Shown piece by piece: positions 3,134 through 32,091 of a stretch of DNA of 64,000 nt. The stretch is from Paracoccaceae bacterium. GTDB taxonomy: Bacteria > Pseudomonadota > Alphaproteobacteria > Rhodobacterales > Rhodobacteraceae. Numbering within the stretch: position 1 is the first letter of the stretch; every line of letters begins with the position of its first letter. The stretch is from NCBI GenBank assembly GCA_002708925.1, contig PAPN01000039.1, positions 1 through 64,000 on the forward strand, in the 5' to 3' direction. The position numbers and the translations under genes were made by a program. Below the pieces are notes generated by a model that worked only from the letters and a program-made list of their open reading frames with translations, was not told the DNA's origin and searched no databases.

Positions 3134-4912
3134 ATGGATCTATTGCATTTGTCTCAGAACACGCAGGCGATTTTGTCTCTGCTGGTTGTGCTGGGCATGT
3201 TCATCCTGTTCGTCAAAGAGATTTTCCCAACCGAAGTCGTAGCCATTACCGGCACGGGGCTGATGCTGGTTCTGGGGCTTTTGCCCTACCAGGACGCGCT
3301 GACGGTGCTGTCGAATCCGGCGCCTTGGACGATTGCGATGATGTTCATCGTGATGGGGGCGTTGGTGCGGACGGGGGCTTTGGATGCGTTCACGGTGCTG
3401 GCGGATCGGCAGGCGCGCTCGAACCCGAAACTGGCGATCGCGATGCTGCTGGCCTTTGTCATTCTGGCCTCGGCGATCATGAACAATACGCCCGTGGTGG
3501 TGGTGATGATCCCGGTCTTTGTGCAACTGGCCGGCACGATGGGCGTGAACGCCAGCCGGCTGCTGATTCCGCTGTCTTATGCGGCGATCATCGGCGGGAC
3601 TCTGACGCTGGTGGGGACGTCGACGAACCTGCTGGTGGATGGTGTGGCCCGTGGCCAAGGGCTTGAAGCCTTTAGTATTTTCGAGGTCACCCCCCTGGCT
3701 GCCATCCTGGTTGTCTGGGGCATGATCTATCTGGCGGTGTTCGGAAAACTGCTGTTGCCGGACCGGATCAGCATGGCCAGTATGCTGTCCAATCGCAGCA
3801 AGATGAAGTTCTTTACCGAGGCCGTCGTGCCCCCGGATTCGAACCTGATCGGGCGCGAGGTTCTGGGCGTGCAGCTGTTCAAACGCGAGGGCGTGCGCCT
3901 GATTGACGTCATTCGCGGCGATCAGTCCTTGCGCCACAGTCTGGAGGGCGTCGCGCTTCAGGTTGGTGACCGTGTGGTGCTGCGTACGCAGATGACGGAA
4001 TTGCTGAGCCTGCAACGCAACAAAAGCCTGAAACGTGTGGATCAGGTCTCGGCTGTGGAAACCCAGACGGTTGAGGTGCTGATCACGCCGGGCTGTAAGA
4101 TGGTGGGGCGGTCGCTGGGCTCGATGCGGTTGCGGCGGCGGTACGGGGTTTATCCGCTGGCAGTGCATCGGCGGAACCAGAATATTGGCTCGAAATTGCA
4201 GGAACTGGTGGTGCGCGTGGGCGATACCCTGCTGCTGGAGGGCGCGCCCGACGATATTCAGCGCCTGGCGGCGGATATGGATATGGTGGATGTCAGCCAC
4301 CCCTCGGCCAAGGCATTCCGGCGTGGCCATGCCCCGGTGGCCGTGGCTGCGCTGCTGGGTGTGGTGGTGCTGGCGGGGCTGGGCGTGGCGCCGATCCTGC
4401 TGCTGTCTACGCTGGCGGTGGCCGTGGTTCTGATCACGCGCTGCATCGATTCAGACGAGGCCTTTTCCTATGTTGACGGCCGTCTGCTGGCGCTGATTTT
4501 CGCGATGCTGGCCATCGGCGCGTCGCTGCAACATACCGGCGCGGTCGAGCTGGTGGTGAACGCGTTGCAGCCCGTGCTGTCCAAATTGCCGCCGGTTCTG
4601 ATCATCTGGGCGATTTACCTGCTGACCTCGACCTTGACGGAAATGGTGTCCAATAATGCGGTGGCCGTGGTGATCACGCCTATCGCGATCGGGCTGGCTC
4701 AGGCGATGGGGCTGGACCCGCGCGCGCTGGTGGTGGCGGTGATGATCGCGGCCTCGTGCAGCTTTGCCACGCCGATTGGGTATCAGACGAACATGCTGGT
4801 CTACGGGCCGGGCGGCTACAAGTTCACCGATTTCCTGCGCGTGGGCATTCCGCTGAATCTGACCATGGGGATGCTGGCCTCGGCCTTGATCCCGTTTTTC
4901 TTTCCTCTCTAA
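3134..4912 (+). CDS. SLC13-family permease with central TrkA-C domains (first of pair)
   Basis: This 592-residue inner-membrane protein has hydrophobic halves at about 10-215 and 395-592. Between them are two soluble RCK-C (TrkA-C) modules (about 225-385). The paired signatures of the divalent anion/Na+ symporter fold are visible: NNTPVVVVM and GTSTNLLVDG in the first half, SNNAVAVVITP and TPIGYQTNMLVYGPGGY in the second. Known relatives move dicarboxylates, sulfate or similar anions with sodium; the substrate cannot be read from sequence. An AAAGGAA ribosome site precedes the ATG. The gene ends four bases before the convergent paralogue. Confidence 0.85.
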   Translation: MDLLHLSQNTQAILSLLVVLGMFILFVKEIFPTEVVAITGTGLMLVLGLLPYQDALTVLSNPAPWTIAMMFIVMGALVRTGALDAFTVLADRQARSNPKLAIAMLLAFVILASAIMNNTPVVVVMIPVFVQLAGTMGVNASRLLIPLSYAAIIGGTLTLVGTSTNLLVDGVARGQGLEAFSIFEVTPLAAILVVWGMIYLAVFGKLLLPDRISMASMLSNRSKMKFFTEAVVPPDSNLIGREVLGVQLFKREGVRLIDVIRGDQSLRHSLEGVALQVGDRVVLRTQMTELLSLQRNKSLKRVDQVSAVETQTVEVLITPGCKMVGRSLGSMRLRRRYGVYPLAVHRRNQNIGSKLQELVVRVGDTLLLEGAPDDIQRLAADMDMVDVSHPSAKAFRRGHAPVAVAALLGVVVLAGLGVAPILLLSTLAVAVVLITRCIDSDEAFSYVDGRLLALIFAMLAIGASLQHTGAVELVVNALQPVLSKLPPVLIIWAIYLLTSTLTEMVSNNAVAVVITPIAIGLAQAMGLDPRALVVAVMIAASCSFATPIGYQTNMLVYGPGGYKFTDFLRVGIPLNLTMGMLASALIPFFFPL

Positions 4913-4916
4913 GGGG

Positions 4917-6689
4917 TTAGAGAGGCCAGAACAGCAAAATCAGCGGGATGGAAACGCCCACGACCAGGATTTCCAGCGGCAGGCCCATGCGCCAGTAATC
5001 GCCGAAACGATAGCCTCCGGGGCCCAGAACCAGCGTGTTGTTCTTATGCCCGATGGGCGTCAGAAACGCGGCCGAGGCAGCAATGGCGACGGCCATCAAG
5101 AACGGATCGGGATTGACGCCCAATTGCTGCGCCATCTGGATGCCGATAGGGGCCGCGACAATCGCCGTGGCGGTATTGTTCAGCACGTCCGACAGGGTCA
5201 TCGTCACCACCATCAGCACGGTCAGAATGGCCCAGGCGGGCAGGCCCTGGGTCAGCGAGACCAGCGCGCCTGCGATCAGATCGGTCCCGCCTGAGGTTTC
5301 CAGCGCCGCGCCCAGCGGAATCATCGAGCCCAGCAGCACCACAACCGGCCATTCCACATGGTCGTACAGCTCGGCCAGGGGCAGGATTTTCGCCAGCACA
5401 TAGGCCACAACCACCAGTCCCAGCGCCACCGGCAGGTAAATCAGCCCCAGGCTGGCCGCCAGAACGGCGGCGGCAAACAGGCCGATTGCCAGCCAGGTTT
5501 TGGAATCGTCCGTCACCGTCAATCCGCGATTGGCCAGCGGTAGCACCCCCAGCCAGTCCATCACATCCGCGCCAGCCCCGCGCGGGACAAGCAGCAGCAG
5601 AATATCGCCGGCCAGCACCTCGGTTTTGCGCACCTGTTCGCGGATTTGCCGCCCCTGGCGCGAGATCCCCATCAGGACCGAGCGCTGCCGCCACGCCAGC
5701 CCCACCGCCTGCGCCGTGCGCCCGGTCAGACGGGATTCTTGGGGGACGACGACCTCGATAATGTCCAGACCCTCGCCCTCGGCCTTTAGCAAGGTCTCGC
5801 GTTTTTCGTCGGAAAATGCCAGCGACAGCGCGGTGCGAAACTCATCCAGAGCGTCCGGCGCGGCCTCCAGCACCAGCGCGTCGCCGGCCTGCAACACCGT
5901 ATAGCGCGCACGCCCATAGCGCCGTTTCCCGTCGCGGATCAGCCCGATGATGGCCACGTCGGCCTTTTCCGCGTCCTCATAAAGCTGCTCAACCCGTTTG
6001 CCGATCAGTTTGGACCCGTCAGGCACCGTCAGCTCGGCAATATATTCCCCAAGATCAGCTACTTGCGTTGTGGCGTCCTCGCGTTTGGGGATCAGGCGCC
6101 AGCCGATCAGGGCCACGAAAACCAGCCCCGCCAGCGCCGTCAGACCGCCCACGGGGGCGAAATCGAACATGGCAAAGGGCGCGCCCAGCGATTCCTCGCG
6201 GATGGCGGCGATGATGATGTTGGGCGGCGTGCCGATCAGCGTGGCCATGCCGCCCAGAATGGTGGCAAAGCTTAGCGGCATCAGGCTCAGCCCAGGGCTG
6301 CGCCCGGCCTTATGCGCGGTCTGAATATCCACGGGCATGAGCAGCGCCAGCGCCGCCACGTTGTTCATAAAAGCCGACAGAATGCCGCCCACGCCGCCCA
6401 TCAGCGCGATATGCCCGCCCAGGGATCGGCTGCTGTCCACCAGCGTCCGGGTGATCAGAAACACCGCGCCCGAACGCACCAATCCGGCCGACACGATCAG
6501 CACCAGCGCCACCACCAGCGTGGCCGAGTGGCCGAAACCGGAAAACGCGTCCTTGACGGGGACGACGCCCAGAACGACTCCGATCAAGAGAGCAGTGAAG
6601 GCTACCAGATCGTAGCGGTAGCGCCCCCAGAGCAGCATGGCGAAAACGCCTCCGAACAGGGAAAACAGGATGATTTGGTCTGTGGTCAT
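4917..6689 (-). CDS. SLC13-family permease with central TrkA-C domains (second of pair)
   Basis: This is a 590-residue paralogue of the neighbouring permease with the same build: two membrane halves flanking two TrkA-C domains. Signatures are [35 protein letters not shown] and [18 protein letters not shown] chose the ATG at 6689 because AGGAGGG lies 7-8 bases upstream; an 18-residue upstream extension is possible but lacks family character. The two permeases are convergent and nearly touching, yet clearly divergent in sequence, so they probably differ in substrate. No ion or anion can be assigned. Confidence 0.85.
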
Positions 6690-6810
6690 GGGCGGGCCCT
6701 CCTGCTTGCCACACAATCCCATGGCCGCACGGAACGCAACCACCTTGCGGCCCGCCCCCCGCCTGACTTATAGAGACCCGACGCAACGTATTCAGATGAT
6801 GGAGGCACCG

Positions 6811-7551
6811 ATGGCCGGCCACTCTAAATGGGCAAACATTCAGCACCGCAAGGGCCGGCAGGATGCCGCCCGCTCGAAACTGTTTTCCAAACTGTCCAAG
6901 GAAATCACCGTCGCCGCGAAAATGGGCGACCCCGATCCCGATAAAAACCCGCGCCTGCGCCTGGCCGTAAAAGAGGCCAAATCGCAATCCGTGCCCAAGG
7001 ATGTGATCGAACGCGCGATCAAGAAATCCACCGCGGGCGACGGCGACGATTACGAAGAAATCCGCTACGAGGGCTACGGCCCCAACGGTGTTGCCGTGAT
7101 CGTCGAGGCGATGACGGATAACCGGAACCGGACGGCCTCGACCGTGCGCTCGACCTTCACCAAGAACGGCGGCAACCTGGGCGAGACCGGCTCGGTCGGG
7201 TTCATGTTCGACCGCAAGGGCGAGGTGACCTACCCCGCCGAGGTGGGCGACGCGGACACGGTGATGATGGCCGCAATCGAGGCCGGCGCCGAGGATGTCG
7301 AAAGCAGCGAAGACGGCCATATCATCTGGTGCGCCGACACCGATTTGAACGAGGTGTCCAACGCGCTGGAGGCCGAACTGGGCGAGTCGGATTCGACCAA
7401 GCTGGTGTGGAAACCCCAGACCACCACCGAGCTGGGCCTGGAAGACATGCAAAAGCTGATGAAGCTGATCGACGCCCTGGAAGACGATGATGACGTGCAG
7501 CGCGTCACCACCAATTTCGAGGCCTCGGACGAGGTGATGGATCAGCTCTGA
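6811..7551 (+). CDS. yebC: YebC/PmpR-family regulator
   Basis: This 246-residue protein begins with the family signature [18 protein letters not shown] at the ATG at 6811, which fixes the start. An upstream extension to 6637 is antisense to the permease and not real. YebC proteins are three-domain cytosolic factors described as DNA-binding regulators and, for some members, as ribosome-associated factors that help translate difficult proline-rich stretches. The usual partner ruvC is not adjacent here. A hairpin with a T-rich tail at 7578-7606 ends the gene. Confidence 0.94.
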
Positions 7552-8047
7552 TCCCTGATAGCGCCGCTGGCATTTGGAATCGGTCCCCTGGGGCCGATTT
7601 CTTTTTGTCCCCAGCGCGTTATGCGGCACAGCGCCTGCGTGATCTTGGGGCCTGTTCCCCAGGTCGTGCGTTTTTATCCACAGGCGTCTGGCCCAGGTCC
7701 GAAAATCGGGCTATCAGAAAACAGCCCTTTTGGCCGGGAATTTACACGTAAACCGCCCCCTCCTTGTCGAAATCTGATGTTGCGTATCTTTATCCACAGT
7801 GTCCTAATTTTCTGTGAATACTCTTGGGGATAAAGCGCAGGCCCCTGCCATTGGGGTTTTGCCATCTGCGCGCTCGGTCAGGGCTGGTTTTTCCCCGGTT
7901 TTCACTGTAAGGGTTTGAAAACGTGTGGGGTTTTCCTGGTCTCTGACTTTGGATTGCGTCATTTCCAGATTGTTCAAGACCTCAGATATGCCTTGTTTTC
8001 CAAGGGCCTGAGGCGCGTTCCTAACGTCATCAGATCCGAGGTGTTCG
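7552..8047. other. Gene-free stretch with DnaA-box cluster (candidate replication-related site)
   Basis: This 496-base interval holds no convincing gene. After the yebC terminator it carries two perfect DnaA boxes, TTATCCACA at 7674-7682 and 7790-7798. Two near matches lie on the other strand: 7813-7821 (reads GTATTCACA) and 7825-7833 (reads TTATCCCCA). A/T-rich patches lie between and after them (around 7741, 7805, 7910). A small hairpin GGGCT...AGCCC followed by TTTT is at 7708-7731. The cluster resembles an origin, a DnaA-titration site or a DnaA-regulated promoter; only the boxes themselves are seen directly. Confidence 0.5.
7578..7606 (+). terminator. Rho-independent terminator after yebC
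   Basis: AATCGG and CCGATT arms enclose CCC/GGG pairs, followed by TTTCTTTTT. It begins 26 bases past the yebC stop. Confidence 0.75.
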
Positions 8048-8641
8048 ATGGAGTCAACCATAGCGGGTTTCGGTCTGGGACTGTCCCTGATCCTGGCGAT
8101 CGGGGCGCAGAATGCCTTTGTTTTGCGGCAGGGGGTGCGCCGCGAGCACGTATTTGCCGTGTGCCTGACCTGCGCCTTGTCCGATGCCTTGCTGATTGCG
8201 GCGGGGGTGTCGGGCTTTGGTGCGCTGGTCACGAAACTGCCCTGGCTGGAGCCGCTGATGCGCTGGGGCGGGGCCGCGTTTCTGATCGTTTACGGTGCGC
8301 GCGCGTTCTGGGCGGCCTGGCGTGGTGGCGCGCATCTGGATGCCGCGCAAGCCGGGCGTGCCAGCCTGAAAGGCGTGTTGCTGACCTGCCTGTTGCTGAC
8401 CTGGGCGAACCCGCATGTCTATCTGGATACGGTGGTTCTGCTGGGCTCGGTTGCGGCGCAATATGCGGATCGGCTGAATTTTGCGCTGGGGGCGATGACG
8501 GCCAGTTTTGTGTTTTTCTTTTCTCTGGGCTATGGGGCCCGCCTGCTGGCCCCGCTATTTGCGCGCCCCGTGGCCTGGCGCATTCTGGACGTGCTGGTGG
8601 GGCTGATCATGTGGACCGTGGCAGCCAGCCTGTTGCTTTGA
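8048..8641 (+). CDS. LysE/ArgO-family amino acid exporter
   Basis: This 197-residue protein has about six membrane segments and the LysE opening GLSLILAIGAQNAFVLRQG, typical of the lysine/arginine exporter branch (LysE, ArgO). It should export basic amino acids from the cytosol. Characterised members are usually divergent from a LysR-type regulator (LysG/ArgP); none is present here, so control is unclear. The ATG at 8048 begins the conserved first helix. A long upstream frame overlapping the same region is out of phase with the family and was discarded. Confidence 0.88.
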   Translation: MESTIAGFGLGLSLILAIGAQNAFVLRQGVRREHVFAVCLTCALSDALLIAAGVSGFGALVTKLPWLEPLMRWGGAAFLIVYGARAFWAAWRGGAHLDAAQAGRASLKGVLLTCLLLTWANPHVYLDTVVLLGSVAAQYADRLNFALGAMTASFVFFFSLGYGARLLAPLFARPVAWRILDVLVGLIMWTVAASLLL

Positions 8642-29990: not shown

Positions 29991-32091
29991 GCTGGCCGAA
30001 AAAGAGCTGCGCGGCCGGCCGCTGGACGATCTGACCTGGGACACGCTGGAGGGCATCCCGGTCCAGCCGCTGTACACGGCCGAGGACACCGCCGAGCTGC
30101 CTCATATGGGCGGGCTGCCGGGCTTTGGCCCCTTCACGCGCGGGGTGAAGGCCACGATGTATGCGGGCCGTCCCTGGACGATCCGCCAATATGCCGGTTT
30201 CTCGACCGCCGAGGAATCCAACGCGTTCTACCGCCGCAACCTTGCCGCCGGTCAGCAGGGGGTTTCGGTGGCTTTCGATCTGGCCACGCACCGCGGCTAT
30301 GACAGCGATCACCCGCGCGTTGTGGGCGATGTCGGTAAGGCCGGTGTGGCGATTGACAGCGTTGAGGACATGAAGGTTCTGTTCGACGGCATCCCGCTGG
30401 ACAAGGTCTCGGTTTCGATGACAATGAACGGCGCGGTGATCCCGATCTTGGCGAATTTCATCGTCACCGGCGAAGAGCAGGGCCACGATAAATCCCTGCT
30501 GGCGGGCACCATTCAGAATGACATTCTGAAGGAATTCATGGTGCGGAACACCTATATCTATCCGCCCGAACCCTCGATGCGGATCATCTCGGATATCATC
30601 GAATACACCTCGAACGAGATGCCGAAATTCAACTCGATCTCGATCTCGGGCTATCACATGCAAGAGGCCGGGGCGAACCTGGTGCAGGAACTGGCCTACA
30701 CGCTGGCCGATGGCCGCGAATATGTGCGCGCCGCGATGGATGCGGGCATGGATGTGGATAAATTCGCGGGCCGTCTGTCGTTCTTCTTTGCGATCGGCAT
30801 GAATTTCTTCATGGAGGCCGCCAAGCTGCGTGCCGCGCGTCTGTTGTGGCACCGCGTGATGACGGAATTCGGGGCGAAAAACGACCGCTCGAAAATGCTG
30901 CGGACGCATTGCCAGACTTCGGGCGTCAGCTTGCAGGAACAGGATCCTTATAACAACGTGATCCGCACGGCCTATGAGGCGATGTCGGCGGTTCTGGGCG
31001 GCACGCAGTCGCTGCATACCAACGCTCTGGACGAAGCGATCGCGCTGCCCACCGATTTCAGCGCCCGTATCGCGCGGAACACTCAGCTGATCCTGCAAGA
31101 AGAAACCGGCGTGACCAACGTGGTCGATCCGCTGGCGGGCTCTTATTACGTCGAAAGCCTGACGGCGGAACTGGCGGAAAAAGCCTGGGCCCTGATGCAG
31201 GAAGTCGAGGAAATGGGCGGCATGACCAAAGCCGTGGCCAGCGGGATGCCGAAACTGCGGATCGAGGAATCAGCCGCCAAACGTCAGGCGATGATCGACC
31301 GCGGCGAAGAGGTGATCGTCGGCGTCAACAAGTACCGCAAGGACAAGGAAGACCCGATCGACATTCTGGAGGTCGATAACCAGAAGGTGCGCATCAGTCA
31401 GATCGAACGTCTGGAAAAAATGCGCGCAACGCGTGACGAGGCAGCCTGCACGGCCGCCCTGGCCGAGCTGACCCGTCGCGCCAAAGAGGGAGGCAACCTG
31501 CTGGAGGCCGCTGTGGAGGCAGCGCGCGCTCGGGCATCCGTCGGGGAAATCAGCATGGCAATGGAAGAAGAATTCGGCCGTCACCGCGCCGAAGTGAAGA
31601 CATTGGCCGGCGTCTATGGCGCCGCGTATGAAGGGGACGAAGGCTTTGCCGCGATCCAGTCGGACGTGGACGCATTCGCCGAAAAAGAAGGCCGCCGCCC
31701 GCGTATGCTGGTGGTGAAAATGGGCCAGGACGGGCATGACCGTGGGGCTAAAGTGATCGCGACTGCCTTTGCCGACATCGGCTTTGATGTTGACGTTGGC
31801 CCGCTGTTCCAAACCCCGGATGAGGCCGCGCAGGACGCCGTGGACAATGACGTGCATGTGGTGGGCATCAGCAGCCAGGCGGCGGGGCATAAGACTCTGG
31901 CGCCTCAGCTGATCGAAGCGCTGAAAAACAAGGACGCCAGCGACATCATCGTCATTTGCGGCGGTGTGATCCCGCAACAGGATTATGAGTTCCTGCAAAA
32001 TGCGGGTGTGAAGGCGATTTTCGGCCCCGGCACCAACATTCCCGAGGCCGCGCGCGATATCCTGCGCCTGATCGGTGAGGCCCGCGCCTGA
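29965..32091 (+). CDS. Methylmalonyl-CoA mutase, single-chain adenosylcobalamin type
   Basis: This 708-residue mutase has an N-terminal TIM-barrel substrate domain ([35 protein letters not shown]) and a C-terminal cobalamin domain with [11 protein letters not shown], in which His591 is the lower axial ligand. It interconverts (R)-methylmalonyl-CoA and succinyl-CoA, completing propionyl-CoA assimilation with PccAB; an epimerase is also needed and is not in this window. The ATG at 29965 is preferred to 29959 because AAGAGG then sits eight bases upstream. A strong terminator follows. Confidence 0.96.

Follow-up and report, generated by a model that had tools for sequence, protein, structure and literature searches.

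Downstream of yebC, in a bacterium whose yebC places most of its named relatives in the Rhodobacteraceae, we find a cluster of predicted DnaA boxes that is real, has been kept in evolution and lies outside oriC. It is best read as a lineage-specific, extra-origin locus predicted from its sequence to bind DnaA, and we put the probability at about one half that it is a DnaA reservoir, or titration site, under selection in the genus.

The window, by which we mean the whole stretch of DNA analysed, covers positions 1 to 64,000 of contig C39 in a 61-contig assembly, G000 (3.42 Mb, 83% complete, 5% contaminated), and the genome encodes a DnaA of the usual kind. The genus set comprises nine genomes in three clades, G000 to G008, of which G000 is the window's own and G002 is a one-contig congener of 4.607 Mb.

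DnaA boxes cluster in the gap between yebC and lysE

A sequence-only reading of this DNA had described a 496-base gene-free gap with four DnaA boxes. Both are borne out: the gap runs from yebC to a lysE-like gene, and our motif scan finds the same two exact boxes and two one-mismatch boxes on the opposite strand (Table 1). The two minus-strand boxes start 12 bp apart. The adjoining A/T-rich patches in that description are weak, as the gap is 53% GC and the best 40-bp stretch sampled is 65% AT. The downstream gene scores 199.7 bits against TIGR00948, slightly under the cut-off of 213.65. Terminator-like hairpins number three in 7500-8060, compared with 1.1 expected from shuffles.

Table 1. Features of the yebC-lysE gap in the window, with box counterparts in two congeners
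Feature	Position	Strand	Basis	Counterparts in G005 and G006
yebC (YebC/PmpR family), upstream neighbour	6811..7551	+	above NCBIfam cut-off	
yebC-lysE gap, gene-free, 496 bp	7552..8047		ORFs and sequence	
Terminator-like hairpin after yebC	7576..7601	+	hairpin scan	
DnaA box 1, exact TTATCCACA	7674..7682	+	motif scan	same place: G005 exact, G006 TTATCCCCA
DnaA box 2, exact TTATCCACA, 116 bp past box 1	7790..7798	+	motif scan	same spacing: G005 TTATCCCCA, G006 exact
GTATTCACA, one mismatch to TTATNCACA; next box 12 bp away	7813..7821	-	motif scan	same offset: G006 CTGTCCACA; G005 no box by same scan
DnaA box 3, TTATCCCCA, one mismatch to TTATNCACA; 35 bp past box 2	7825..7833	-		same place: G005 identical, G006 exact TTATCCACA at 36 bp
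LysE/ArgO-like exporter gene, downstream neighbour	8048..8641	+	TIGR00948	

Boxes are mildly frequent throughout the window: 10 sites lie within one mismatch of TTATCCACA against a mean of 5.26 expected, and 3 of 100 window shuffles reach that number. What is unusual is the clustering, not this window-wide frequency. Two exact boxes in the gap stand against 0.006 expected from dinucleotide shuffles, and none of 2000 such shuffles matches them. Across the 3.42 Mb of G000 there are 22 exact copies of TTATCCACA (9 for the reversed-motif control), and the gap pair is the sole pair of exact boxes less than 1 kb apart; the next, on C34, is separated by 1031 bp. The similar box density in many other gaps that would have spoken against the proposal did not occur. 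A third exact TTATCCACA of the window, at 30753-30761 on the minus strand, is isolated.

We rejected a non-coding RNA as a candidate: Rfam gave no match in the window at the gathering score, and none in 7500-8100 at E-values up to 1. The RNA fold of 7640-7850 has z = -1.75, with 10 of 200 shuffles folding equally well or better. No repeats of 12 bp or more were found in 7540-8060. Each of the nine gaps has one to five GANTC, and a scan for CtrA-type sites finds none in them.

The GC-skew switch lies at the maf-rho gap

GC skew had been proposed as a check on oriC, one of the options of the sequence-only reading, and the switch proves to be elsewhere. In G002 we sampled 20-kb stretches: all 20 in the first 2.2 Mb are positive, and all 19 between 2.3 and 4.39 Mb are negative. 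The next values, up to 4.51 Mb, are -0.048, -0.022, +0.010, +0.021, -0.031 and -0.004; in 2-kb bins the sign switches at about 4.516 Mb (-0.094 to +0.078), and all four stretches past 4.528 Mb are positive. This flip coincides with the maf-rho gap, beside parS/parB, with an exact box at 4,514,926 and parS sites at 4,518,079, 4,519,972 and 4,522,309. The yebC cluster of G002, at 3.431 Mb, lies within the negative skew, 1.09 Mb from parS and 1.08 Mb from the switch. With a terminus near 2.25 Mb, it would sit 0.48 of the path from origin to terminus.

In G008 the cluster and the maf-rho/par site share one contig, 0.58 Mb apart. Skew there is -0.010 and -0.046 at the cluster, +0.001 in one intermediate stretch and weakly positive past the par region (-0.015, +0.008, +0.010), so the flip is faint. 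The position of the cluster along the chromosome arm varies between these two genomes (0.58 Mb in G008 versus 1.08 Mb in G002). No skew flip occurs within the window, where only 7.6 kb is available left of the gap, and in G000 parS and the yebC cluster are on separate contigs. The gene order at the maf-rho site of G000 is maf, gap, rho, mnmE, mnmG, rsmG, parA and parB, with the names rsmG and parA presumed from gene order. The maf-rho gap itself (C7:60932-61481, 44% GC) is on a different contig from the cluster; skew is -0.047, -0.050 and -0.065 in the three 20-kb stretches that precede it, and five of the six sampled after it are positive, the sixth being -0.007. Two parS pairs with identical 1,893-bp spacing occur in this one assembly, at C7:56399-58307 and C24:2303-4211; given the 5% contamination, contig C24 may belong to another strain that is related.

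The maf-rho gap is likely oriC. This assignment is in line with a study that used Ori-Finder to locate oriC in 101 Rhodobacteraceae strains and describes its criteria as skew, boxes, a local minimum in GC content and proximity to parAB (PMC6699656). Like the cluster, the family's oriC (the maf-rho gap, with rho-mnmE-mnmG-parB) has DnaA boxes; unlike the cluster, it has 44% GC (in G000), a skew switch and parS about 3 kb away. In every one of the nine genomes the maf-rho stretch (14-20 kb) has one or two exact boxes, a count that the cluster exceeds in seven of the nine, with more than two exact boxes in six. This surplus would favour the cluster as oriC or as a second chromosomal origin. Against that stand the switch at maf-rho and the one-sided skew around the yebC cluster in G002, and, in the window's own genome, a maf-rho gap on C7 that divides negative from mostly positive skew and has parS nearby. 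With the skew switch and parS/parB at maf-rho and not at the cluster, we reject the cluster as oriC, and even with a second origin allowed for we regard an origin here as extremely improbable.

The cluster is kept within the genus and nearly absent beside yebC elsewhere

All nine genomes have yebC, then lysE, then choV, and an eamA between was found in seven. Exact TTATNCACA boxes in the gap number 2, 5, 6, 8, 8, 1, 2, 7 and 5 in G000 to G008, respectively. These counts lie beyond all 2000 shuffles in eight of the nine genomes (8 of 2000 reach that of G005), and counts of sites with at most one mismatch are unmatched by any of 2000 shuffles in all nine. The boxes are clustered beyond chance and away from oriC, with the distance measured in G002 and G008.

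Beyond the genus, an exact box downstream of yebC is found at only 2 of 101 loci (80 named and 21 unnamed, with possible overlap), which cover up to 1,200 bp after yebC and less at three of them. No locus came from ten more genomes with a yebC match, or from one in which yebC had no match. The exceptions belong to a Lutimaribacter sp. (L064, two exact boxes) and a Roseovarius sp. (L107, one); the 80 named loci, 979 kb in total, contain 7 exact boxes. An absence of conservation in relatives, named beforehand as a sign against the cluster, is therefore false within the genus (nine of nine) and nearly true outside it. The two boxes of L064, at 7015-7075, lie in its yebC-lysE gap, and this is the sole other-genus locus among the 101 with two.

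Boxes inside lysG and boxes without it

The gap measures about 1.36-1.56 kb in six congeners, where its reverse strand encodes a member of the ArgP/LysG family (as tested on the copy in G003), here called lysG. One exact box within lysG is invariant in all six gene-bearing congeners. In a codon alignment of the six genes, 15% of third positions are invariant, and the longest invariant runs are two of 10 nt, one of which, TTATCCACAG, is the box. Its codons are (G/A/C)TT ATC CAC AG(A/C), in which the first position varies and the third does not: the residue before the box is V, I or L, with T always at the third position. The other run, GTTTTCAACA, codes for a conserved VFN and contains a one-mismatch match to TTWTNCACA. 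As this run is invariant too, the exact box is not alone in its 10-nt invariance, to which protein constraint may contribute. In the lysG of other genera, with hits shorter than 240 aa and second hits left out, an exact box occurs in 0 of 26, and the aligned place has 4-9 mismatches (n = 26; loose alignment). The other boxes of the cluster are common to sister pairs only, pointing to turnover of boxes between subclades.

The window's own clade (G000, G005 and G006; FastTree support 1.000) has no close lysG: the best match has an E-value of about 1e-9, compared with 8e-194 in G003, in assemblies that are incomplete for G000 and rated 100% for G005 and G006. As other genera have yebC-lysG-lysE, loss of lysG is the simpler history for this clade. 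Its members have three boxes ordered + + -, the second starting 116 bp past the first and the third a further 35, 35 or 36 bp on (Table 1). Box bases are identical pairwise at 16-17 of 18 and 8-9 of 9 positions, and the DNA around them is 0.30-0.37 identical (ungapped). Between boxes 1 and 2, at 7708-7728, the window has a GGCT..GAAAA..AG(C/T)CC stretch, and G005 and G006 have similar ones; fitting these three genomes to its trial consensus takes three mismatches, and at that level none is found in the other six.

Box spacing compared with known DnaA-control sites

E. coli and B. subtilis provide the best-known extra-origin DnaA control sites. We measured the E. coli DARS1 and DARS2 cores as + 14 - 12 -. 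Like the cluster, they have a head-to-head pair with a third box at 12 bp; their core spacing, however, is absent from seven of the nine genomes, and the window has 23 instead of 14 bp. The core occurs at exactly 14/12 in none of the nine gaps and within 1 bp in two, those of the sisters G002 and G004 (+ 15 - 12 -; 0 of 200 random placements as good in a strict scan). The window and G006 have + 23/24 - 12 -, again with 0 of 200 random placements as good, in a loose scan that is unspecific, since in E. coli DARS2 another triple (24/12) outranks the true core. Ordered box triples go beyond random placement in G000, G002, G004 and G006, and not in the other five. The IHF consensus is exact in one of nine gaps and present with one mismatch in eight, by a scan that finds no exact site in DARS2 either.

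Same-strand pairs 11-12 bp apart are present in six of the nine gaps and absent from those of G005, G006 and G008. Random placements as good number 5, 1 and 0 of 5000 in G002, G003 and G007, a clear excess of pairs; 114 in G000 and 85 in G001, a mild one; and 280 in G004, which amounts to none. Such pairs would fit side-by-side binding of DnaA.

E. coli datA, like the cluster, is described as an extra-origin site, with its four to five DnaA boxes in a gap that lacks coding sequence (PMC10380432, PMC4585315); datA requires an IHF site between set boxes, whereas the box spacing of the cluster varies by subclade. The older view of datA as a titration site is reported to have been superseded by one of ATP hydrolysis. 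The B. subtilis DBCs are likewise boxes outside oriC that are thought to act via free DnaA, but there are six, called oriC-proximal (PMC5295017), and here one is shared, 0.58-1.08 Mb away in two genomes. As one review describes DARS-like sequences as conserved in many proteobacteria, DARS-like sites here would have precedent.

Possible functions of the cluster

We prefer titration because several strong boxes are kept genus-wide and their arrangement mostly is not; with boxes kept and their order mostly free, a sink fits better than a machine of fixed geometry. Several DnaA molecules would bind the cluster, far from oriC, and passage of the replication fork would double its strong sites; the doubled sites would then leave less free DnaA, delaying re-initiation. 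Both the binding in the cell and the effect on initiation timing are what we infer. Of the three options in the sequence-only reading, DnaA titration or control fares best, on the strength of the genus-wide boxes, their diverged flanks and the persistence of boxes where lysG is gone. Less easily accommodated are the varying number of boxes (two exact in the window, one in G005) and the ordered triples beyond chance in four genomes, which a pure sink does not need; the sample, too, is nine genomes from three clades. Such triples are among the evidence for an active site, evolved independently in this lineage, that would switch the nucleotide on DnaA, either by exchanging ADP for ATP, as DARS does, or by ATP hydrolysis, as datA does. 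The spacing in G002 and G004 is near the DARS core, the triples of the window and G006 go beyond random placement in the looser scan, and the G002 cluster sits about midway along its arm. Yet the 14-15/12 core is missing in seven of nine genomes, the loose scan misranks the DARS2 core, arm position is not fixed, as the 0.58 Mb in G008 shows, and an exact IHF site is found in one gap of nine, although a one-mismatch site is found in eight and the scan misses DARS2 too. We see a nucleotide switch as possible, if rather unlikely.

Transcription control would have DnaA regulate lysE or lysG, or obstruct RNA polymerase in the space where yebC and lysG converge. DnaA has an established role as a transcription factor (PMC8203912), and the window's boxes are 214-374 bp upstream of lysE. 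The DnaA-regulated lysE promoter of the sequence-only reading is nevertheless less likely, since in six of nine genomes the exact boxes are in or downstream of the reverse-strand lysG, about 600-1290 bp from lysE; lysG separates most of them from lysE, and their location within lysG and in the convergent yebC-lysG space weakens lysE control. A scan of window positions 7500-8060 for sigma-70-like promoters, blind to other promoter types, found none. We judge transcription control improbable. Chance boxes, or neutral remnants with no function, would agree with the single exact boxes at 22 places in the window's own genome and with the turnover of individual boxes between subclades; the shuffle statistics, the presence in nine of nine congeners and boxes that are more alike than their flanks in the window's clade make this very improbable. 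Returning to DnaA control in a broader sense, we also entertain, as an unlikely elaboration, that the genus evolved its own locus for controlling DnaA activity, with a DARS- or datA-like effect and a different build, partly inside a gene whose protein sequence was shaped to accommodate a box, and that it kept this locus after the gene was lost in one subclade.

Our search of the open-access literature found no report of a DnaA cluster outside the origin in Rhodobacterales, a weak negative. A genus-restricted cluster, nearly absent beside yebC in the other genera examined, would let the origin of such sites be studied, and would allow asking whether selection sees the number of boxes or their arrangement. 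Origin finders that count boxes could choose the yebC-lysE gap over the true origin.

Neighbouring genes and other box groups

Upstream in the window, two adjoining convergent genes related to DASS-type anion symporters lie at 3134-4912 (+) and 4917-6743 (-). Both score below the family cut-off, and their mutual identity is about 28% in congener comparisons.

Small groups of exact boxes occur elsewhere in G001 (C4), G002 (1.975 Mb), G004 (C38), G006 (C6) and G008 (C26), and as the pair on C34 of G000. These six have no mutual translated similarity at E 1e-20 over 8 kb, so there is no second shared cluster among them. The G001 group (L217, 3912-4047) consists of three exact boxes in 136 bp and is not shared with the remaining small groups.

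Tandem pairs of TTATCCACA within 30 bp occur in 23 of 296 family genomes (3 of 296 for the reversed-motif control), in a scan that misses G000 and G003 themselves and so is no proof of absence elsewhere. By tblastn, none of the seven proteins of the cluster locus is found in these 23 tandem-box loci (about 1.6-3 kb), and the single blastp hit to the maf-rho and dnaA regions is ParA-like, in L201. Three loci, from three other genera of the family (L208, L209 and L215, at about position 1500), have two tandem exact boxes in a gap with shared neighbours, an MTTB-type methyltransferase upstream (Pfam, L215) and a DUF6456 protein downstream (Pfam, L208). This gap is possibly another conserved DnaA site.
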